64,000 bases of DNA from Prosapia bicincta. Lineage: Eukaryota > Arthropoda > Insecta > Hemiptera > Cercopidae. Both the position numbers and the translations under genes were made by a program. Below the pieces are notes generated by a model. That model was not told the origin of the DNA, did not search any database, and saw nothing but the letters and a program-made list of their open reading frames with translations. The DNA lies in NCBI GenBank assembly GCA_036971475.1, contig JBAIZL010000006.1, forward strand, positions 94,083,265 through 94,147,264, given 5' to 3'. Positions 1 to 53,943 of this stretch are shown here, piece after piece; the first letter of the stretch is position 1, and each line of letters opens with the position of its first letter.

Positions 1-26
1 CTAAACCACAAATAACATTTATTTAA

Positions 27-69
27 ACCTTATGTACATTTCGATTGCCCAACAATCATCTTCAGAGGT
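27..69 (-). ncRNA. Hammerhead ribozyme-like core, intact (subfamily A)
   Basis: Read on the minus strand: CUGAAGA at 65-59 fits the CUGANGA core box. Next is a 5-bp stem II (57-53 with 47-43) with a 5-nt loop. GAAA lies at 42-39, then UGUACAU and A31 as the nucleotide before the predicted cut. Stem I is ACCU (69-66) with AGGU (30-27). Stem III would be AUGU/ACAU with no loop, so it could pair only between two molecules, as reported for minimal hammerheads of Penelope-like elements. The core match is seen directly; activity is inferred and untested. Confidence 0.6.
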
Positions 70-109
70 ATTTAAAAAATACAACGAGTTGTATTTTTTA
101 AATACCTCT

Positions 110-150
110 GAAGTGATTGCTGGGCAAATCGAAATGTACACAAGGTTTAA
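110..150 (+). ncRNA. Decayed hammerhead-like motif in right arm of the foldback element
   Basis: This is the mirror copy of the left-arm motif. The CUGANGA box reads CUGAAGU because one base has been lost relative to the left arm. A TTGC/GCAA hairpin and GAAATGTACA remain. The disrupted core box should prevent self-cleavage. Confidence 0.5.
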
Positions 151-172
151 ATAAATGTTATTTGTGGTTTAG

Positions 173-1340
173 AGGTTTTATTTATTTAAAAATAAACATT
201 ACGCCACAGTTGCTTCATACAGTTAATACTGAAACAGTTGTAAGATTTTATTATCGTAGTTATTTTACAAACACATACAAGTAAAAAGAAGCTAAATCGA
301 TTAGACTCGAGTATGTTTCACGCTGCAATACTTTTCCGTGGTTTTCATTCGAACAGACAGTAGTTGGGCGACCTGAAAAGGCCTTCCGCTGTGTCTAAAC
401 ACTACTTGCTCGTAGAAATTTCTCAACAAAACTCATAATCACACCGTTACTAGATGAGTTTTTCTGAAATTTTTTCTCAAAAAGTGCTACAGTGTGACAA
501 ACTCAGCCCACCGTCACGTCCAATTCCAAACGAGCGAAAATAATGATTTACGATAAAAGTTTTCTATGCCATAAGCTAGCACCATATCAGCGTAAACTAA
601 CCTCAAATGAAATACGTCAAAACGAATAAGCGGTAACAATAAAAAATCGGCACAGCTGATCGAGAAGGCAAGGACAGTTGATTTAGTTTCAGTACTATTT
701 TTTTTTGGCGCATATCGTATCAAGTTATGTTTATTTGTAGTTTATGAAATTTAATATTGATGTTTTGTTTAGCTAAGCTGGCCTTCATCAGGAGTCTGTT
801 CGCGACGTACACTACGCCGTTGTTAAACGTCGATACTCGTATATCTCAATACCAATACTGAATTTTGTTTCCAAGTGCAGCATAACCTTCTAGAGCTTTT
901 TGTGGATACACACAACCAAATTTGTGGATTTCAAATTCCAAGTGTTTTATGTCGATTTTTCCATACATTCCGTGTATTGGGTAAAAAGTGTTTTATTTAG
1001 TAGTCCATGGACAGTTCCAAAACCTTACTTGGAAGCCTGCACTAATCATGTTCTCCTTTTCAGAATGTTTAGGTACAATGTCGTGTGAATCGAAAACATA
1101 ACTGGATATATTGGTGTTACTCCATGTTGATGACTATATTATTACTAATACTTTACAATATTTATTTCAAATATAATATTCTTATTGTTTTATTATTATT
1201 ACTATTGTTATTATTAATTATCAAATAATAACTATCACTAACTCACAATCATTAATTATTTTCTCCTGCGTTGTCATGATAAAAACATCAACAAAATAGA
1301 GTATAACTCTTTGTCTTGTATTGTACAGTCTTTGTATGTT
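173..1340. other. AT-rich intergenic DNA, nothing recognised
   Basis: About 1.2 kb of low-complexity AT-rich sequence, with ATT runs near 1130-1260. Short frames at 514-723 (minus) and 900-1088 (plus) have no recognisable domain and the composition of their surroundings. No gene is supported. Confidence 0.6.
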
Positions 1341-1342
1341 AT

Positions 1343-1386
1343 CCCTCTGAGGATGGTTACTTGGTAGCTGAAATGTACATGAGGGG
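1343..1386 (+). ncRNA. Hammerhead-like motif with non-cleavable position 17 (subfamily A)
   Basis: CTGAGGA at 1347-1353 is followed by a 6-bp stem II (1355-1360 with 1364-1369, loop TTG), then GAAA at 1370-1373 and TGTACAT at 1374-1380. Stem I is CCCU (1343-1346) with AGGG (1382-1385). The base before the expected cut is G1381, and hammerheads do not cleave after G. It appears to be a fixed, inactivated relative of the motif at 27-69, without an inverted partner nearby. Confidence 0.5.
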
Positions 1387-2341: not shown

Positions 2342-3100
2342 GCCAATAGCGAAACATATTTATCCTGGTTTTTTTCAGGATAGCCTTGCAATCCCTTCGG
2401 TAGATTTTACAAATCATAATGATTCGATATTTTCTGCTGTCGAGGCCCACCTTAGCAACTATGACGGTGAGGTAGCTGTCATATATGCTGCAGCAATTGA
2501 ACTTGAGAACCTGACTGCTCCAGCTAAGGTAGTTTCCTTTGTTCACTCTAAGACCGCCTTCCTCTCTGGGAACTCACGGACCGACTGTATCAGATCCATA
2601 AAATGTAAAAGAAAACTAAATACTCTCATAAATGCTGGGTGGGTACTTACTTTCCAGTGGAAACCGAGCCATGTAAACATCACTGGGAATGAAAAGGCTG
2701 ATCAACTAGCCAAGCAAGGAACAAGCCTCCCCCAGCATCTGAGTTCACTACATTCATCCACGTCCCTAATAAAAACGTCCACCAAAAAAATGAAATCAAG
2801 GTCGATTGAGGGTGCTCTCAGCAGGAAAACGGTCGGAGAATCTTGTGATGGGTAGACCAATTGACCAAAATTTGCCCCGATCTGTTAGCGTTGCAGCTTT
2901 CAGATTGAAGACCTGTCATGATTACTTTGCTGCGCACCACCGCATTCATGTGCTACCGACCCCGGAGTGTCTGCTGTGTGGTGGTGAACTTATGAATGCC
3001 GAACACTTTGGTGATTGCACAGCCCTGGACCGGGCCCAGGATTATAACAGTCCCATCTTCAGGGATGCCCATCTGTACGGACAGCGTAAGAGATGACCAA
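2342..3100 (+). pseudogene. Decayed non-LTR retrotransposon, RNase H and C-terminal zinc-knuckle part of ORF2
   Basis: The plus-strand frame open from about 2342 to the TAG near 2853 encodes an RNase H-like domain. It reads DGEVAVIYAA (acidic second-strand region), FVHSKTAF, then WKPSHVNITGNEKADQLAKQ, the typical C-terminal RNase H signature with H, N and D. Shifted by one frame, 2806-3096 continues with the tail after RNase H found in I/R1-like LINEs. There RLKTCHDYFAAHHRIHV leads into a Cys-Cys-His-Cys knuckle (CLLC...EHFGDC). The frameshift, missing first catalytic region and absence of an upstream reverse transcriptase make this a 5'-truncated dead copy. The clade assignment is inference. 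Confidence 0.8.
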
Positions 3101-4255: not shown

Positions 4256-4716
4256 TTACTGTATATTTGAGTACATTTTTCTGCCTTTCCTGACTATACA
4301 ATCTTTTCGTCTCTTGAAGCGTTTCGAAATGACACCATTTTCCAAACTTAAACCGTACTGTTCGCCCAAATCTTGGTATATATTTGAGTACATTTTTCTG
4401 CCTTTCCTAACTGTACAATCTTTTCGTCTCTTGACGCGTTTCGAAATGACACCATTTTCCAAACTTAAACCGTACTGTTCGCCCAAATCTTGGTATATAT
4501 TTGAGTATATTTTTCTGCCTTTCCTAACTTTACAATATTTTCGTCTCTTGACGCGTTTCGAAATGACACCATTTTCCAAACTTAAACCGTACTGTTCGCC
4601 CAAATCTTGGTATATATTTGTACGGTTTAAGTTTGGAAAATGGTGTCATTTCGAAAGGCGTCAAGAGACGAAAAGATTGTAAAGTTAGGAAAGGCAGAAA
4701 AATGTACTCAAATATA
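4256..4716. repeat. 117-bp tandem repeat, three direct copies plus a terminal inverted copy
   Basis: CCATTTTCC recurs at 4335, 4452 and 4569, giving an exact 117-bp period over about 4258-4617. At about 4619 the sequence turns back and an inverted copy of one unit runs to about 4716, so the block can fold into a hairpin. Copies differ by a few bases. As 117 is 39 codons, both strands stay open for about 115-122 codons; these translations are simply the repeat and are not proposed as genes. In reverse complement, each unit has GAAACGCGTC after a small hairpin, which recalls the 3' half of a hammerhead core, but the CUGANGA box is absent. Confidence 0.9.
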
Positions 4717-6120
4717 TATATTCGTACTTTATTTTTAAAAAATAGTCAACTTATGTATATACTAGGGGCTTTTAATGGCAAATGCCTCTATTCATATTGA
4801 AAAAAATTTTTAACTTTTGTATAAAAGTTTTATTTTTTTAAACAAATTAATTTAATATAATTAAAATTTTTCATAGCAAAATTTCCTCATAAACTATATT
4901 TTTTTGTGAATTTCTTTTCCATTTAATTTTGTTGACCAATTGTATTATCAATATGTATCTTTAATCCATCTTGAGATTTTTCTCGACTTAAGTACGAAAA
5001 CACCTGCAACATAGAATTGACTATGTGTAAAAACAGGTAAAAACAGATTTGGTCGATTAAAGCTTTACTTATAGTTATTGAAAATGTAAGTCTTAAAAGA
5101 AAATTGGTTCCTTTTCTTTAGAAATGAGATGTTAGGATCTGTTGATATTAATTTAATTATTGGTAAAAATATCATGTTTCCTTTTCCAGGACCAGGGATA
5201 ATATCTAATTTAATACACTTGTCAAACATATCTAGCACCACAAGACGTACCCCATTAACTCAACCTGATCAAAGTTCATATTTCTAATTAACCTTTAATA
5301 CTGTTAAAATATCTGTACTCAGCTGTTTTTAATATAATATTTGTACAGCTGTTTCTCAGCTGATATATTTTAAAATCATATTCAGCTGTTTTTCATTGCA
5401 ATGTATTTCTTATGCAGATTTTTGGTAACTTTAAGTTCTTCAAAAACCTATGAATGTTGTAAATAGAGAAAAACCTATATTTTTCCCCGCTCCCCCCCCC
5501 AATACTTTTAATTTAAGCCATCTCCCAGCTCTGTACGAAATCCCACAATTTTTCTCTCAAAATTCGGCTCACGAAATTATATATATGGAAATTTAATTAA
5601 TTATTAAAATATAGTTAACTATATTTATATATTTTTTAACTACTTATTTTTAATTAGTTTCTCCAGTCTACGTGTTAGTGTTCGAGTGATAATATTTCTT
5701 AGAGTAATTAGAGTTTTAGCAAAACGTGTGAGTAATGATATGGTTACTATTTGTTAAACATAAAAATGAATTATTTACAGCCCCTTTGTGCGTACAAAAC
5801 GAGACGGGGAATCTGGGAAGACCTTATTAAATTGACTTTTGATTTCAGATAAAACTTACTCAGAAACCCATAAAGCGAGAAGGGAGAAAGAAGAAATTTG
5901 TGCCTACTGACTTGTATTTTATCGTTTCAACGGTGCCCTCGCGTTAAAGTTTGGCGAGTGGTGAAAACGGGAGGGGTAGAAACGTGACCTAACATATAAT
6001 CGTAGAATTCTTTAAACCTGCCGCCAGTTATGTGGCTATAAGGGTGCAAACTGGTAAAAGTCGAGGTGCGTACATCCATATTATGTGTACACTTGTGGGT
6101 AGTGCGTAGTAGTTTGTGCT
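4717..6120. other. Intergenic DNA with a less AT-rich patch at its end
   Basis: Mostly AT-rich and featureless, with a C-run near 5492-5501. The last part (about 5780-6110) is distinctly less AT-rich and has a normal dinucleotide mix (for example GGCGAGTGG and CCGCCAGTTATG), but no open frame of note and no tRNA-like A/B boxes. It could be an old repeat or a regulatory region; nothing further can be said. Confidence 0.5.
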
Positions 6121-6242: not shown

Positions 6243-6459
6243 ACTAATTTCTTACAAAGAAACCTCAATGTAATTTCATCTTTTAAAATGTATACATACT
6301 TTGAGCAAAATTGAGTTAAATGTTTATTGTAAAATCAATAACATTTTCTGATAAAAGTTTTTGATAATGTTATAAAGTTAATTACAGCTTAAAAAGTAGA
6401 ACAATTCAACAATAATTCATATATGTCTCAATAAGTGATCAAAATAAGAGCATTAACAG

Positions 6460-6633
6460 TTCACTCAAAATCTCACAACACGCTTGTTTATACATACATA
6501 CAGACTAGTTTCGATGACGATGTCACCTTCATCAGTGATTAACAACCATTAATAGCCAATCAACGATGAAGGCTACATCGTTTAACTAGCCTTATGTATT
6601 AATAAACACTTTTGTAGTGAGATTTTGAGTGAA
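6460..6633. mobile_element. Foldback element with hammerhead subfamily B motifs
   Basis: The terminal inverted repeats are perfect over 17 bp (6460-6476 and 6617-6633, TTCACTCAAAATCTCAC and its complement). The inner arms pair again around the motif GATGAAGG...ACATCG. The left arm carries an intact minus-strand hammerhead core (6503-6535). The right arm (about 6564-6595, plus) is a mutated copy with the GAAA box lost. The ends match those of the element at 12168-12326, so the two are family members. No coding capacity. Total length is about 174 bp. Confidence 0.85.
6500..6537 (-). ncRNA. Hammerhead ribozyme-like core, canonical (subfamily B)
   Basis: On the minus strand: CUGAUGA at 6535-6529; A; stem II GGUGA (6527-6523) with UCAUC (6517-6513) and loop CAUCG; GAAA at 6512-6509; a one-pair stem III C6508-G6505 closing UA; then U6504, C6503. 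This gives the canonical GUC cleavage triplet, with the predicted cut after 6503. All invariant core positions are present. Weak point: stem I is only about 2 bp (AC with GU) before a mismatch, and stem III is minimal, so monomer cleavage would be poor. Confidence 0.65.
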
Positions 6634-7252
6634 ATCTTTTAATATTTAGCGTTGCGATAATGTTATGCCTATACTTTTAAAAACATACGATTGCACTCAA
6701 TATAAGAGAGTAACAAAACATGTTAAGATTCGTTTTGGATTTTAAAAAGAATCATTCTTATCAGCAGTTGTATTTTTTTAATTTTCCTAAACGTTGATTC
6801 GTGTACAATTTCGTTACCTTATTTTAAATACGAATTTATCAAATAACAGATAGCCTTGTTTAAATAGAAGATTGGTGTGAGGTACAATTTTATAATTATT
6901 TTTTAAAAAATTACTATTTAATGTATAAATAGTTATTTAATATATAAGCATTACTGATTATTACAAATGTATCATTCATCAATACATAAAGTATATTACA
7001 TTTTAAGATTTTTCTTTCGGGTGTTAATTACATATTAAAATCCAATTTATAACATTTTCAATGTAAATGTGGAAATATTTGTGCATAAATGGAATACTGG
7101 TTATATTCCAATTTCTTTTGAATAAACTGCACATTTTCCTAAACTACTTGTTTGTATTGTATTGTGATTGTAAAAAGTCATATTTTGTAAGGTAATTTTT
7201 CATTTTTGAACTGTTTTTACAATCTTTCTTTTGCTTCATATACTTGCCAGCG
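6634..7252. other. AT-rich intergenic DNA, nothing recognised
   Basis: No frame, repeat or RNA signal beyond AT-rich background. Confidence 0.6.
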
Positions 7253-10592: not shown

Positions 10593-10655
10593 TACAACAA
10601 TGATATTCGCAAAAACCCCAATACGTCAAAAATAACTAATATTACAATTTGCTTC

Positions 10656-10886
10656 AGATTAAACCCCTATGTACATTTCGATGACCATGCCATCATCATC
10701 AGAGGATCCTATTACAAAATTACAATTTAGAATACAATATTTTACAAAACTAGACCGACTCTAAAATTTAATAATGTCAGTATAATTTTTAATTTAGTGT
10801 ATTATTGTATTCTGGATTGTAATTTTGTAATAGGACCCTCAAATGATGATTGAATGGTCATCGAAATGTACATAGGGGTTTAATCT
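10656..10886. mobile_element. Foldback element (hammerhead subfamily A) inserted beside (AT)n
   Basis: The left arm (about 10656-10738) is repeated in reverse complement at about 10805-10886, around an AT-rich spacer of about 65 bp. Shared words include AAACCCCTATGTACATTTCG on the left and its complement on the right. The left arm holds a full hammerhead-like core on the minus strand. The right arm has lost the CUGANGA box (CTCAAATGATGA). No open frame. It is related to the element at 1-172. Confidence 0.85.
10663..10707 (-). ncRNA. Hammerhead ribozyme-like core, intact (subfamily A)
   Basis: Minus strand: CUGAUGA at 10702-10696; U; stem II of six pairs (10694-10689 with 10685-10680, one G-U) and loop AUG; GAAA at 10679-10676; UGUACAU (10675-10669); A10668, with the predicted cut after it. 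Stem I: 10707-10703 with 10667-10663, five pairs including two G-U. As in the copy at 27-69, stem III is the palindrome AUGUACAU, so only a dimer could form a proper stem III. Confidence 0.6.
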
Positions 10887-10971
10887 TAGGAAACTTGCAA
10901 TATTAGTTATTTTCGATAGGTTTTATAGTATTAAGGGTTTTGCCAATATTTTTATTATAATTTATTTTACT

Positions 10972-11010: not shown

Positions 11011-12167
11011 TAATTTACTTTGTTCAGGTAAAACGTTTATAATAGTCTGCAAAATATGTATTTTATAAAATGTGAGCATTAAAAGTATATATTATATATA
11101 TGGTTGTGAACAGCTGTGAGTAGCTCTTTAATCTAGTTGGCATTTCCAATATACCAAAGGTTTTATAAAGGTATTATGCTACATATATTCCAATAGTTTT
11201 GGTGCTCTTTTTAATAGAATGTCGGTTATAAATTACAATTAAAATCAGATAGATTTCGTAAATTAGGTGTTTTCTAATTAAACCCAAACATAAATTTTAA
11301 CTTCTTTTTAAGTGGCCCTACTAATTAATCTTTATTTAGAACAAAAATACTACCTTAGACTACTAAAATTTCTTGAACTTGTTTTAATAATAAACTAATG
11401 TGTTAAGAGGGATTACTAAGTAAAAAAGGGAAATTTGGTGGAAATTGCTTCTACTGTTTGGACGATGTACAGTCGGTTGTAAAATCGCACCAGCCCATTC
11501 GCTGATGTTGGTCTCTTAGAATCCGATACTTAGATACGAAATTTTATCTAGAGAGATTTAACAGAAGACAGGCTTTTCAGTATTACGTCATAAATATCGT
11601 CAGAGCCATTTCTGTGAGAGTGATTCTGACAATTCTTCCGAACTCACTCTTGCGGATGGTCTGAGTAACTTTCTGAAATCAAGAAACAGCTTCTGGCATT
11701 AGACTAATATCAAGATAAAAACACAAAAAAGATTTAAAACAACGGAAGGGAAAAATTGTTTGGACAATAAATCCATAAGACAATTTTTTCCATTTACTTC
11801 TATAGCACAATAGATATTTAAAAGATGTAAAACATATACGTTAGTCATCAGAGACTGATTTTTCAGTAGTTATGTTGCTACTACGATTTGCATTAATTCA
11901 TTATAAACATTTAGTACATTTATTGTGGTAATTTTTCAGCAAAACCTTCAACTACATGCTCATAACCTGTTTGAAATTCCCCATTGATATTTTGATTTCT
12001 TAACGTTTTATAGTCTAAGTATTTAGAATTTTCGAGTTTAAATTATGTGCAAGAGCGATGCACATTAGAACATCAAAATTAGAGAATATTAGAAATTTGA
12101 TCAAATCTAATGTGGACTAATTTAATTTGGACCTTCGCTAGTGAGAACAATTCACAACGGTAAAAGT
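11009..12167. other. AT-rich intergenic DNA, nothing recognised
   Basis: A short patch around 11570-11690 could encode a Ser/Asp/Glu-rich peptide in one frame, but it is broken by stops and too short to assign. Otherwise featureless. Confidence 0.5.
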
Positions 12168-12326
12168 TAAAACAGTTCACTCAAAAATCCCACTACACAC
12201 TTGTTATTAAAACATACAGACGATGGATTGGTAAGCCCATCAGTGATGAAGGCAACATCGTCGTCAAAACTAGTGTGTGTGTTTTAATAAACTGTTGTGT
12301 AGTGAGAGTTTGATGAAACTGTTTTA
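12168..12326. mobile_element. Foldback element, degenerate relative of 6460-6633
   Basis: The outer ends pair (about 12168-12197 with 12299-12326) and match the ends of the 6460-6633 element (TTCACTCAAAA...CCCACTAC). The centre reads CAGTGATGAAGG...CGTCAAAACTAGTG on the plus strand. This is the subfamily B hammerhead with a changed first core base, G lost from GAAA and G at the cleavage position. In the left arm the GAAA region is deleted. Both ribozyme motifs therefore look dead. Confidence 0.75.
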
Positions 12327-13644
12327 ATGTTTATTGTTATCAGTGTTGATATAGATGAACGATTTCTTTTCATTAAACATTGCCATATTAAATATAACTC
12401 AATACCAAACGAAAGGTTTTAGTATAAGGCAAGGAAAGAAAAGTTTGATTCAATAAGCTCCGTTAAATCAAATTTAAAACCATTTAAGAGAATACTAAAT
12501 GAGACCTACAGACCCCTGGAGGGTGTTCCCTCGGTGTTGTCCCTAAATGAATAAACTCGTTTATCAACAGATGCGCCCTACACTTATCTATTTCTAATGT
12601 AAAATGATTTCTAATTTTCATTTTCGATTATTAACGTTATAATTATTTTTCTTTTAATAATACTACTTAAAATCTATCGTCGCATACGGTAAACAATTAT
12701 TAAAAAATATCGTTGAAATTTAAACGATTTTAAAATTTGAAGTAAAAGAAGAGACATTTTTAATTCCTGGCACAGTTTAAGTTTCTGTTTACAGAAACAA
12801 GATAAATTTAAAAAACATTTTTTGATATCTACAGAAGTATTTAATTGAAATTTAAATAAATTTTTTTATATCTGTAAAATAACACACACATTGTCCTCCA
12901 TACACACAGAAGTGTATAGTTTAAAATTTAGAACCATATAATAAAAATAAAAACTCAATAAAACCACAAATAGTTTAATTTTACCAAAATTAAAATTATC
13001 TTAGGCAGACATGTCGAAAAGTATAAAATAAATGATATGCGATTAATTATTTCACAATGTGTTTCCTACAACTTGTTTTCTAACTTTTATTTAAAAAGTT
13101 ATCCAACTGTATCTTTTTTAAAAATGTTTGGAAATGTTGTGTCTCGCTTGTACATTTTATTCCAATATACATTATGTTAAGGATTCATTACAAGGACATT
13201 GGGTTTCGAAGAAGAGGACTTGGTAGGTAGAATTATTGATGAGGAAATACGTTTACAGGAGATACGAGTTATAGGTACATCCTTAACCATAATTATTTTT
13301 TTTAAGAACCAAGTTACTACAGTATTTCGAAAATAAATATATTCTTATGTATGATTATAAATTGGTCACAGGTTCGTTAGAAAGGTACTTTGGTATTATA
13401 CCAACCGCACACCTATAGGAAGTGTAGGACATTGCAGAATGAAAATGTACATAAATGACCCTTAATATTAAACTTTTACAAAAGTTCTCACTAGAACATT
13501 TTTAGAAAAATCTCAAATCATGAAGCAGTTAAAACATCCATTGAAGGTATACAGCCTACAAGTATAACCTTATTTCTTAAACATGTCCATTAATAAATAA
13601 TTGCATGTCCATTTATCGTTGCAATGTAACGGTGTATTTATGTA
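12327..13644. other. AT-rich intergenic DNA left of the satellite
   Basis: No gene, RNA or repeat unit recognised. The sequence up to the array edge shows no trace of the 102-bp unit. Confidence 0.6.
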
Positions 13645-15300
13645 TTTTTTTGTGTATTATCCTCTTTCCCCAGGTGTGTGTGGTCAGTATAATACCAAAA
13701 CTGTACGCTACAAATATTTATCACATGAGTTTGTAAGTAATTTAAGATTTTTTGTGTAATATCGTCTTTCCCCAGGGGTGGGTGGTCAGTATAATATCAA
13801 AACTGTACACTACAAATGTTTATCACATGAGTTTGTAAGTTATTTTAGATTTTATGTGTATTATCCTCTTTCCCCAGGGGTGGGTGGTCAGTATAATACC
13901 AAAACTCTACGCTACAAATATTTATCAAATGAGTTTGTAAGTAATTTTAGATTTTTTGTGTAATATCGTCTTTCCCCAGGTGTGGGTGGTCAGTATAATA
14001 CCAAAACTGTACACTACAAATATTTATCACATGAGTTTGTAAGTAATTTCAGATTTTTTGTGTAATATCGTCTTTCCCCAGGGGTGGGTGGTCAGTATAA
14101 TATCAAAACTGTACACTACAAATATTTGTCACATGAGTTTGTAAGTAATTTTAGATTTTTTGTGTAATATCGTCTTTCCCCAGGGGTGGGTGGTCAGTAT
14201 AATATCAAAACTGTACACTACAAATATTTGTCACATGAGTTTGTAAGTAATTTTAGATTTTTTGTGTAATATCGTCTTTCCCCAGGGGTGGGTGGTCAGT
14301 ATAATATCAAAACTGTACACTACAAATATTTGTCACATGAGTTTGTAAGTAATTTTAGATTTTTTGTGTAATATCGTCTTTCCCCAGGGGTGGGTGGTCA
14401 GTATAATATCAAAACTGTACACTACAAATATTTATCACATGAGTTTGTAAGTAATTTTAGATTTTTTGTGTAATATCCTCTTTCCCCAGGTGTGGGAGGT
14501 CAGTATAATACCAAAACTGTACGATACAAATATTTATCACATGAGTTTGTAAGTTATTTTAGATTTTATGTGTATTATCCTCTTTCCCCAGGGGTGGGTG
14601 GTCAGTATAATACCAAAACTCTACGCTACAAATATTTATCAAATGAGTTTGTAAGTAATTTTAGATTTTTTGATTATTATCCTCTTTCCCCAGGGGTGGG
14701 TGGTCAGTATAATACCAAAACTGTACTACAAATATTTATCACATGAGTTTGTAAGTAATTTTAGATTTTTTGTGTAATATCGTCTTTCCCCAGGGGTGGG
14801 TGGTCAGTATAATACCAAAACTGTACACTACAAATATTTATCACATGAGTTTGTAAGTAATTTTAGATTTTTTGTGTATTATCCTCTTTCCCCAGGGGTG
14901 GGTGGTCAGTATAATACCAAAACTGTACCCTACAAATATTTTTATCACATGAGTTTGTAAGTAATTTTAGATTTTTTGTGTATTATCCTCTTTCCCCAGG
15001 GGTGGGTGGTCAGTATAATACCAAACTGTACGCTACAAATATTTATCACATGAGTTTGTAAGTAATTTTAGATTTTTTGTGTAATATCCTCTTTCCCCCG
15101 GGGTGGGTGGTCAGTATAATACCAAAACTGTACACTACAAATATTTATCACATGAGTTTGTAAGTAATTTTGGATTTTTTGTGTAATATCCTCTTTCCCC
15201 CGGGGTGGGTGGTCAGTATAATACCAAAACTGTACGCTACAAATATTTATCACATGGGTTTGTAAGTAATTTTAGCTTTTTATTTATTATCCTCTTTCCC
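13645..15300. repeat. Divergent left edge of the satellite
   Basis: Units here differ most from the consensus: GTGTAATATCG linkers, ATATCAAAACTGTACAC variants, CCCCCGGGG instead of CCCCAGGGG at 15096 and 15200, and several indels (14722, 14937, 15018). Because of in-frame TAA in the linker, no long open frame exists. Decay at one edge fits a satellite homogenised from its interior by unequal exchange. Confidence 0.9.
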
Positions 15301-50885: not shown

Positions 50886-51279
50886 TTTATTTATATTGGT
50901 AAAAAATCATTCGTAAATACAATTTTAAACTTTAAAAACATTTTTAATATAAGTTATCTACTGTACTTTAACTTGACGTTTTAAGTAGTCATTTACTTTA
51001 GGTTGCGCAATTGCTTCAAAATTAAAAGCAATAATGTATTCGGATTTGAAAATCGTTTTTGAGAAAAAGCGTATTTAACCTGATGGGTGGAAATGTGGGA
51101 GAATCGTTACTTCATAGGGTGGAACGTAAACCACCCTTGTACACCGATAGCATATAAGCATTTCTGTGGGTAGGGTTGCTTCACTTAAGTGAAAATGCTT
51201 ACTACCTAGGCGATATTATCACAGAACAGAGATATATTCAATTTTTAATTAATAATTATAGGAAAAAATAAAATAGTTG
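50886..51279. other. Intergenic DNA right of the satellite
   Basis: AT-rich with a less AT-rich stretch (51080-51240). No frame, RNA or relation to the 102-bp unit is visible. Confidence 0.55.
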
Positions 51280-51496
51280 ACTGTGAATCTCACCACACAT
51301 TAGTTCAATAGAAACAAACACACTAGTTTATAACACAGACTCGTTTCAGCGACGATTTCGCCATCCTCAGTGCCTGGCTACTCAGTAAGTAGAAGCCAAG
51401 CATAGAGGTAGGCGACATCGTCGCTGAGACTAGTCTGTGTTATAAATTATTGTATTTGTTTCTATTAGACGAATGTGTGATGAGATTCAGAGTTTA
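51280..51496. mobile_element. Foldback element with hammerhead subfamily B motifs
   Basis: The ends pair (CTGTGAATCTCACCACACAT near 51281-51300 with a complementary run ending about 51492). The inner arms pair around ACACAGACT...CGACGAT and its complement. The left arm carries an intact hammerhead-like core on the minus strand. The right arm (plus, about 51401-51440) has GAGA instead of GAAA and a damaged first box, but keeps the GUC triplet. It lies about 400 bp from the satellite's right edge. Confidence 0.82.
51335..51373 (-). ncRNA. Hammerhead ribozyme-like core, canonical (subfamily B)
   Basis: Minus strand: CUGAGGA at 51370-51364; U; stem II GGCGA (51362-51358) with UCGCU (51352-51348) and loop AAUCG; GAAA at 51347-51344; C51343 and G51340 closing GA; then U51339, C51338. 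All core boxes and the GUC triplet are present, with the predicted cut after 51338. Stem I is about 3 bp (GCA with UGU). The match is sequence-level; cleavage is untested. Confidence 0.65.
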
Positions 51497-52547
51497 TTAT
51501 TTCATTTTTTTCCGTTGTGAATAGTTCTCACTAAGGTTCTCTAATTAACCTAATATACTTAGTGACCCAGTCAAATTGTAACCAGAGCAGTATTAACGAA
51601 TTTCGTTTCAATTTAGATACTAGCGAAATTCTTGTAACGATATTTTTAGTTTACACATATTTCTAAATGAATAAATGCATTTTATCAACATTCTTCAGTT
51701 TCCGTGGGAACCGCAAATGCTATCGCCACTGACCACCATGTGTCGTGTATTACTTGATATCTACCCAATTTATAATAATTTCTCATTTGAAACTGTTTTC
51801 TTTTCAATTCTCTCTGCATTTATCCAGTTTCTGTTATCCACCTAATCTTCCACTTGCATTGTGGATTGCCATCAAATCGAAAATAGTATCCTTACTCTGA
51901 TTTCTAACTTCCGGTTTTATACATCAGGTTCGTATTGCTATCTTTAGAATCGAGATTTGATACTTATTGACTATTTTGGTTCTCTTTATTAATAAAGTGC
52001 GTATGCCCTGAGTATGGATCGAAATTAACACAAAGCAAGAAATGGAATCATGATTTTGTTCTGGCATTGTGAATTTCTTCATTAGACTAATAACAGCTTT
52101 TCGTTCATTAAAAAATTTAGAGTATTTATGATTTTTAATCTTGTTTTGTACATTTCGAAGCAATTAAGGTAATTTAATGTGATAAAATATTTATTGCTTA
52201 ATCTTAATTTAACCCTTAATATTAAATAAGTATAATTATAACTAAAGTATAAAAACAGAATCGAAGAACACAATCAAATGTTTAATGTTAACATTGTTTT
52301 GAATTCTCTTGGACAATTCCATTTGTTCTTCCCAAATGAAAGCAAGATAATTATGAAACGTTAAACACACACAAAATAGCCCCACCAGACGGTGGCAATG
52401 TTTATTTATCTTATATGTTTCATTAAATTGGATCTTTTAGTGAAAAGGTTACTATATTCGAAATTCATTAGTATTAACTATCGAAAGTAAGCATCCGCAG
52501 ACAGAAAGAAGAGTTATGTGTATGTTTATAATTAGTAGTCTCTTTAT
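51497..52547. other. AT-rich intergenic DNA, nothing recognised
   Basis: Two overlapping minus-strand frames (51924-52163 and 52082-52273) have no domain and ordinary background composition. Confidence 0.55.
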
Positions 52548-52762: not shown

Positions 52763-53943
52763 GTATAGATCTTAGAAAAGGTATAGATTCAAATGTTAAA
52801 GCAATATACTGTAATATTAGGAATTTGTAATTCAAAGAATGAATTTTCTTTTTATAATTTCAAATTGAACAAACATCTGACAGTTAGTATAGCCTATACT
52901 GTATTTCAAAATATAAATCTTGAAAACGAGTTCTAAATTGGGTAAAGTTTGAAACGTTAATTATGCAGGAAAACCTAGCAAAATAACTTCAGCTACCAAA
53001 ACCTATTATTTAGTGATTGGTCATCAGCTAGCTATAAAGAGGTTGATACCGCGTTACCTCTGATTATCCAATAATATTGAACGATTTTTTTGCAATTATA
53101 ATTAATATAATAATAACTTTTATTTTCATACATTAGTATAGTGCTTCTCTTATTACACAACATGCTACAATATCAATAGTACTGTCACTATACCGCAATC
53201 ATGTTAAACTAGGCGCATTAAAATAATTAAATTACAAAAGAAAAGAACACTATATGATAAGTCAATTTAAAACGAATTTTTCTATAAAACTACCATTTTA
53301 AGTCCATTTTACATTGAAAATTTCTAAATATTAAAAAAAACTTACAGATTTCTATTTGGAATGAGTTAAATGTTCGACATATTAGTTTCAATAAGTTATT
53401 GTAACAAATATGTGTTTATTTTTAATACTTTTGGTGGTCAGGACAAAGACATATTTGTCTAAGAATTAATGACTAACAGCGTACAGTAGTTTTGTAGAGA
53501 TCTCTTTTGTATGCTTGAATATGTTTCCTTTCTTGTGAAATACGACCGTAATAAAACTGTCTAGATCTTTTACGAAGGAGCGTTCTGTGAAAAGACTGAC
53601 AAAAAAATCGAAATTTTAATGTTCGTATAAAATTCTTGTTCGTATTGAAATACGTCGGACGTATTGTTTGTATACTGATCCATACGTACTTGCATAAATT
53701 AGTAGGATGCACATTAGAAATAATAAACTGCTCTTGATGTTTTCAGAGAGGAGTATCTCAATAAATACACAAAAACCTCTTAACCATAAACTTTCTTTAT
53801 TTTACCCTTTCTGGGCATCTTTCTGCGTATTTGTAGCATAATGGGCTCTTGTAAGGTTCTTGTTGCAACTAGCCTTCGTTGGGAATGGGCGTGGAACGGT
53901 TCTACTTAAAATGTTATCAAAATAAGGATTCGTAGTATTTTAG
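52763..53943. other. AT-rich intergenic DNA with a short repeat-end remnant
   Basis: Mostly featureless. At about 53765-53810 the word ACAAAAACCTCTTAAC and its neighbourhood resemble the reverse complement of 1380-1420 beside the hammerhead-like motif, suggesting a decayed end of the same repeat family. A short open stretch with Met (53841-53909) matches nothing known. Confidence 0.45.

Follow-up and report, generated by a model that had tools for sequence, protein, structure and literature searches.

The 64,000-nucleotide stretch of the Prosapia bicincta genome analysed here (the window) contains short foldback sequences, each half of which carries a hammerhead-like ribozyme motif pointing outwards. 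The question was which kind of element these pairs represent and by which process they are produced.

Inverted pairs and hammerhead cores in the window

All five inverted pairs that had been proposed in the initial annotation (1–172, 6460–6633, 10656–10886, 12168–12326 and 51280–51496) were present at their places; their extents required correction, the elements being longer than listed (B1, for example, covers 6374–6655). One single arm was found in addition, and each half of the pairs contains a hammerhead or a remnant of one. Two sequence families were distinguished: family A comprises A1, A2 and the single arm, and family B comprises B1, B2 and B3. The coordinates of all features are collated in Table 1.

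Table 1. Foldback elements, hammerhead arms, tails and target-site duplications in the window (window coordinates).
Feature	Position	Strand	Remarks
Element A1, near-perfect palindrome	1–225		right limit approximate; close copies L015, L058
A1 left arm, intact hammerhead	29–73	−	predicted cleavage 3′ of base 31
A1 right arm, hammerhead missing one core base (deletion)	100–144	+	
A1 tail	196–225 (limits approximate)	+	by comparison with L015 and L058, where only one arm is tailed
Single A-type hammerhead arm, G at position 17	1339–1383	+	core otherwise good, at plus 1347
B1 target-site duplication GATAATGTTAT, left copy	6363–6373	+	11 bp, exact
Element B1, inverted pair, long (tailed) arm on left	6374–6655		exact flanking duplication
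B1 left arm, intact hammerhead core	6501–6543	−	predicted cleavage 3′ of base 6503
B1 right arm, degenerate hammerhead	6563–6591	+	
B1 target-site duplication GATAATGTTAT, right copy	6656–6666	+	11 bp, exact
Element A2, inverted pair, longer arms, ~37-nt centre	10600–10950 (outer limits uncertain)		
A2 left arm, intact hammerhead	10666–10710	−	predicted cleavage 3′ of base 10668
A2 right arm, degenerate hammerhead	10832–10876	+	
Element B2, inverted pair, both cores degenerate, long end left	~12118–12338		
B2 right arm, degenerate hammerhead (GUGAUGA, AAAA)	12235–12277	+	
Element B3, inverted pair, long end right	~51263–51555		
B3 left arm, hammerhead core, one stem II mismatch	51336–51378	−	predicted cleavage 3′ of base 51338
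B3 right arm, degenerate hammerhead	51395–51437	+	
B3 tail, right arm only	51518–51555 (limits approximate)	+	

Directly to the left of window base 1 the genome sequence reads N (L091:901–1000), and since A1 adjoins these bases its left end is not judgeable. An assembly artefact beside the N stretch was considered for A1 and rejected, as close copies with the same plan are present at L015 and L058. The duplicated flank of B1, GATAATGTTAT, occurs twice in the window, versus 0.14 expected occurrences, and a tail remnant of this element was recognised by eye at about 6374–6410. The idea that the left arm of B2 begins at the ribozyme cleavage site was dropped, since a small deletion between the repeats fits equally well.

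Four other sequences were recorded in the window: a 102-bp satellite at 13646–50890 (about 365 copies, 96% matches); three 117-bp tandem copies at 4262–4718 followed by one inverted copy, which gives a long hairpin; the probable remains of a LINE-type RNase H region at 2343–3093 (Pfam RNase_H E 0.0016, below the Pfam cut-off); and, at 53760–53807, a solitary segment matching the sequence downstream of the A3 hammerhead, with no clear ribozyme core.

Cores consisting of CUGANGA, stem II, GAAA, a tiny stem III and a cleavable base were located on the minus strand, with CUGANGA starting at 65, 6535, 10702 and 51370 and with stem II lengths of 6, 6, 6 and 5 bp, respectively. Placement of these cores reproduces the four cleavage bases predicted previously (Table 1), and the partner arms are degenerate, as had been claimed, the pair at 12168–12326 being without an intact core. 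Position 17, the cleavage position, is A or C in these four arms; a fifth arm with an otherwise full core has G17 (plus 1347). Stem III is a palindrome of only 6–8 nt (ACUAGU or AUGUACAU; ACGAGU in B3). Minimal hammerheads with a weak, palindromic stem III are described as acting as dimers (PMC6466107, PMC7761336).

The chance level was determined with a descriptor comprising the core, stem II and a stem III of 2–3 bp. The descriptor matched six times in the window, never inside the 102-bp satellite, whereas dinucleotide shuffling of the 26,755 non-satellite bases (1000 rounds) yielded a mean of 0.008 matches, and none of the shuffles (0/1000) gave a stem II of ≥5 bp combined with a stem I of ≥2 bp. 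The match at plus 9482, with G17 and no stem I, is probably due to chance.

Compensatory changes in stem II, to which the initial annotation had looked for a decision on these motifs, were found among the copies: four of the six pairs change on both sides. In eight window arms out of 11 (A1R and B1R were excluded for their indels and B2L for its rearranged core), 44 of 48 stem II cells pair, and cells with a double change number nine, versus 2.6 in shuffles. The corresponding values for 12 arms of families A and B, picked for intact cores, are 94.4% of 72 cells and 12 double-change cells versus 4.4. Two other measures are weaker, so that not all measures of covariation exceed the shuffles: the number of pairs changed on both sides was reached by 10/500 shuffles (eight arms) and 48/500 shuffles (12 arms), and the number of further pair types by 113/500 and 89/500, respectively.

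With the curated Rfam models, no hammerhead family was matched at E≤10, either in the whole window or in 6440–6650 alone. Near-background Rfam scores had been put forward as evidence against ribozymes; this test would mislead here, as there is no Rfam hammerhead match, yet stem II covaries. Rfam matches of A1 to miRNA families were rejected (they lie below the gathering scores and reflect the long hairpin). A covariance model built from eight arms assigned 39.5–53.8 bits to those arms, by construction, and 24.0 bits (E 0.0017) to the right arm of A1, which lay outside the model. On the basis of core and stem II, the arms can be classed as hammerhead-like ribozymes of the minimal form known from Penelope-like elements (PLEs), with cleavage sites predicted from sequence. 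No PLE reverse transcriptase or GIY-YIG domain was detected by Pfam in the 10 window ORFs submitted.

Copies elsewhere in the genome

The claim of a dispersed family was borne out. Near-matches to the B hammerhead pattern (up to two mismatches) numbered 2949 (1429 + 1520) in the 2.2-Gb genome, and those to the reversed control numbered 0. A similarity search with B1 returned at least 41 places, the window's own included, from 40 scored out of 2140 first-look candidates; selection by similarity to B1 biases this first set of 41 accordingly. Loci were also taken by the ribozyme alone: 26 of 30 (several of them near-duplicates of each other, and two places already contained in the first set) carry inverted, outward-pointing pairs of the kind reported for the window, and the other four (L067, L075, L082, L086) are single arms. 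In five arbitrary 8-kb stretches, B arms were absent at E≤1e-4, and family A was represented by one clear pair (L058) and one weak match (L057). Inspection by eye of the reading frames near L092, L078, L085, L082 and L036 showed one, beside L082, that resembles a LINE-type RNase H.

Viral contigs gave no match with strict patterns; looser patterns gave 4 and 8 stretches, none of which had the same anatomy when evaluated by script. L007:6710–6742 and L008:2966–2998, both viral contigs, carry CTGATGA-GCTCTA-GGCA-TAGAGC-GAAACTAGTC, in which a hammerhead whose stem II has 6 bp can be recognised by eye; the script had missed it through a fixed offset.

Ends, junctions and proposed origin of the pairs

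The outer ends of most B arms fall at two places about 37 nt apart. The tailed end reads ...GAATTGTTCTCACTAGCTAAGCTCTAATTAACTTAA (37-nt tail), and the untailed end lies at about ...TTTACCGTTGT. Combinations of ends were counted in 58 distinct pairs, with duplicates dropped (L052 and L070 are one place) and arm limits taken from local alignments: 47 pairs are long+short, eight are short+short, three are long+other and none is long+long, versus 11.4 long+long pairs expected for independent ends (p about 3e-6). The same holds for the 19 distinct pairs from ribozyme-selected loci only (long+short 15, short+short 2, long+other 2, long+long 0 versus 4.2 expected, p 0.008). In the A1-type copies L015 and L058, too, one arm is tailed and the other untailed, the tail measuring about 26–30 nt.

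Where long and short arms overlap in extent, their majority letters agree in a set of 21 B elements (including B2 and B3), and the majority sequence of both arms retains the hammerhead core. Arm identity is 0.83 within elements and 0.80–0.82 between elements. As the former value is only slightly above the latter, both arms probably began identical and then decayed independently.

The inner junctions were positioned relative to q1, 13 nt before CUGANGA. In 52 of the 58 pairs the start of the fuller arm falls at q −5 to +5, and that of the other arm varies from −65 to +108. The arms differ by more than 4 nt in 38 pairs, with truncation of the long arm in 21 of these and of the short arm in 17. 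The centres contain filler, 0 to about 15 nt in length and unlike among most copies, although several centres end, by eye, in a weakly common CAG, possibly a sign that some palindromes have a common ancestry. Sequence upstream of q1 is common to L078, L085, L082 and L036/L053 (one place) and reaches up to about 180 nt in L085. The short arm of L064 begins exactly after the cleavage site; the seven starts beyond +30 (38, 39, 44, 47, 101, 106, 108) are not convincingly clustered at this site.

Target-site duplications were tested in 22 B elements against 460 crossed flanks; four elements with an unreached long end, B1 among them, were excluded. Five of the 22 have duplications at p≤0.02: those of L017 (13 bp), L032 (12 bp) and L034 (12 bp) exceed all 460 crossed flanks, and those of L026 and L020 measure 9 bp. 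The other 17 gave no significant duplication. The A1-type copy L015 has a 14-bp duplication, TATATTTCTATTAT. Lengths thus vary in the two-family set including B1 and L015 (9, 11, 12, 13 and 14 bp).

We consider it likely that the foldbacks are ORF-less inverted pseudo-LTR pairs of Penelope type that were made by two-sided target-primed reverse transcription. Covarying cores, inverted pairs, two outer ends, variable inner junctions and some duplications are directly observed; what we infer is the PLE enzyme, the 5′ end of the RNA, the order of events and the identity of the arms as pseudo-LTRs. The RNA would have its start close to the hammerhead (in family B about 13 nt ahead of CUGANGA), span hammerhead and tail, and be bound by a PLE-type reverse transcriptase/endonuclease. 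Cuts 9–14 nt apart would be made in the two target strands, and each target 3′ end would prime reverse transcription inside the RNA, the far start site giving the long arm with its tail and the near site (about 37 nt upstream in B) the short arm. The two cDNAs would then meet head to head and be joined with trimming and filler, and repair would yield the target duplication. Several points count against this reading: the early-closing frames of the arms and the differing start sites, both in comparison with the Anolis PLE discussed below; the 17 of 22 B elements without a significant duplication; the CAG centres; the choice of the first places by likeness to B1 and the use of local alignments for the arm limits; and the weaker covariation measures. 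In addition, no PLE reverse transcriptase or GIY-YIG gene was observed adjoining the ends at the loci inspected.

A doubtful extension of two-sided priming is that the pairs form a self-standing class of tiny non-autonomous retroelements, the PLE counterpart of SINEs, in which one short ribozyme RNA would always be employed as two copies at once. The palindromic stem III would join two hammerhead RNAs into a cleaving dimer; this RNA dimer would sit on a dimeric PLE enzyme, and its members would prime from both cut strands at different start sites. If this were true, the job of the ribozyme would be the pairing of templates for two-sided integration.

Among the alternatives to two-sided priming, retroposition of a palindromic master RNA as one hairpin, by one-sided target priming, survives best, and we regard it as unlikely. 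The short arm would be the 5′ end and the long arm the 3′ end of such an RNA, so that the long/short polarity would be natural; the nearly constant size of most B1-like copies and the weak CAG seen by eye at several centres also fit. Outer truncation of the short arm and centres common to the copies would be predicted, whereas the outer ends cluster at two places. Variation is instead mostly central, the arms being mostly 0.81–0.97 like the majority while the centres differ between most copies, and L078 and L085 extend further inward on both arms.

Self-priming, in which a single cDNA folds back and copies itself, is disfavoured more strongly than palindromic-RNA copying and appears improbable, even though self-priming on an antisense template has been proposed for Adineta PLEs and palindromes at inverted pseudo-LTR junctions have been read in this way (PMC3846280). 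It predicts equal outer ends, against which stand the 47 long+short pairs of 58, with only eight short+short and no long+long; nor does it accord with truncation that affects the long and the short arm about equally often (21 versus 17).

A palindromic MITE or foldback DNA transposon, with the hammerhead-like motif as a coincidence, would account for short, apparently non-coding elements with inverted arms and many copies; the duplications have no fixed length (9–14 bp), the arms are unequal and the ribozyme stem covaries in two sequence families, which makes this origin very improbable.

The initial annotation had also noted that the minus (left) copy is the intact one in all four pairs with an intact core. 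Four cases out of four in the window fit chance (two-sided p=0.125), and selection that keeps the minus arm is not supported by the 21 B elements, of which 10 have an intact long arm and 11 an intact short arm (four retain both and four neither; intact meaning that CUGANGA and GAA are retained). Both arms are intact in the A-type copies L015, L058 and L092. In minimum-energy folds of four elements, in which the hammerhead was not forced, the full palindromes reach −86 to −157 kcal/mol and the hammerhead stretch alone −6 to −13 kcal/mol. That the copies are working double-ribozyme elements, with the ribozyme of one strand under selection, is hardly credible: one arm is indeed intact in four of the five window pairs, yet which arm this is looks random (21 B elements; window p 0.125) and the ribozyme would, by the folding energies, lie inside a long hairpin. 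As either arm decays alike and the hairpin of a palindrome transcript would bury the ribozyme, the ribozyme most likely acts in the parent RNA rather than in the copies, and the inverted copies are probably not active ribozymes.

Direct tandem arrays of hammerheads, with minus-strand units, were observed inside such insertions at L089:542–2216 and L090:290–1749 (locus coordinates). The units measure 77–88 bp, each with a hammerhead or a variant, and L090 contains 15 of them. Because the ribozymes are in direct orientation there, these arrays are an exception and, if transcribed, could cut themselves to monomers in the manner of retrozymes.

Statistics of ends and junctions can discriminate between two-sided priming, self-priming and palindromic-RNA copying, and a genome with thousands of hammerhead matches, those examined being mostly ORF-less inverted pairs, constitutes a fossil record of integration. 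PLE integration and the role of the weak PLE hammerheads are described in the literature as unsettled. Since the curated Rfam models found no arm in the window, the ORF-less inverted hammerhead form may be under-annotated elsewhere.

Comparison with known systems

The initial annotation had treated the pairs as a kind of element that it did not recognise. Such a reading is not supported: Penelope elements are known in which inverted pseudo-LTRs stand head to head and one of them bears a tail (PMC3846280), and minimal hammerheads have already been reported in PLE pseudo-LTRs (PMC7761336). In Adineta vaga, Pen2a and Pen3a are described with inverted pseudo-LTRs head to head and palindromes at the junction, with an optional 31-bp tail on one inverted copy (one copy being 37 bp shorter) and with target duplications of 8–10 bp (PMC3846280). 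The present pairs resemble them in the inverted plan, the palindromic junction, the one-sided tail and the short duplications; they differ in being mostly arms only, in a genome that has thousands of ribozyme matches, whereas the Adineta inserts, as described there, usually contain an ORF or a captured gene and occur in few copies (PMC3846280).

Inverted and tandem pseudo-LTRs, as in PLEs, are both found in the present family if the arms are taken as pseudo-LTRs (inverted in the pairs, tandem in L089 and L090). Short target-site duplications were found at significance in five of 22 elements, and in B1 and L015. The PLE-like tail of 30–40 bp on one inverted copy has its equivalent in the tail of about 37 nt in family B, the A1-type tail of 26–30 nt being slightly short.

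Poseidon_Ac, a PLE of Anolis, bears on the proposed mechanism. Its purified protein is reported to cut and extend both DNA strands, with two adjacent internal start sites of reverse transcription and a tail of 30–40 bp between them (PMC11167929). Cutting and extension of both strands and two start sites with the tail between them are proposed for the present elements as well, and in both systems a hammerhead lies just upstream. In Poseidon_Ac, the ORF starts at stem II and no difference in start site between the strands was seen (PMC11167929), whereas the reading frames of the present arms end shortly after the ATG next to stem II (by eye) and the two ends of the present elements differ.

The minimal type I hammerheads of PLEs, credited to Cervera & de la Pena 2014 and Lunse et al. 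2017 (as cited in PMC7761336 and PMC6466107), have a weak or missing helix III with a palindromic loop and are dispersed in non-coding DNA (PMC7761336, PMC6466107), all of which they have in common with the present arms. The passages dealing with them describe dispersed or tandem motifs that act as dimers and do not mention inverted pairing (PMC7761336, PMC6466107). Metazoan non-LTR retrozymes are non-coding direct tandem repeats of about 300 bp with type I hammerheads (PMC7229834). The present elements share with them the short non-coding hammerhead repeats and, in L089 and L090, the tandem units; they are set apart by the inverted pairs at 26 of 30 loci and by the unit length of 77–88 bp, and the retrozyme arrangement of units of about 300 bp in direct tandem was not found in this family. 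In a literature search, largely of open-access papers, a family of inverted hammerhead pairs lacking an ORF was not seen described.
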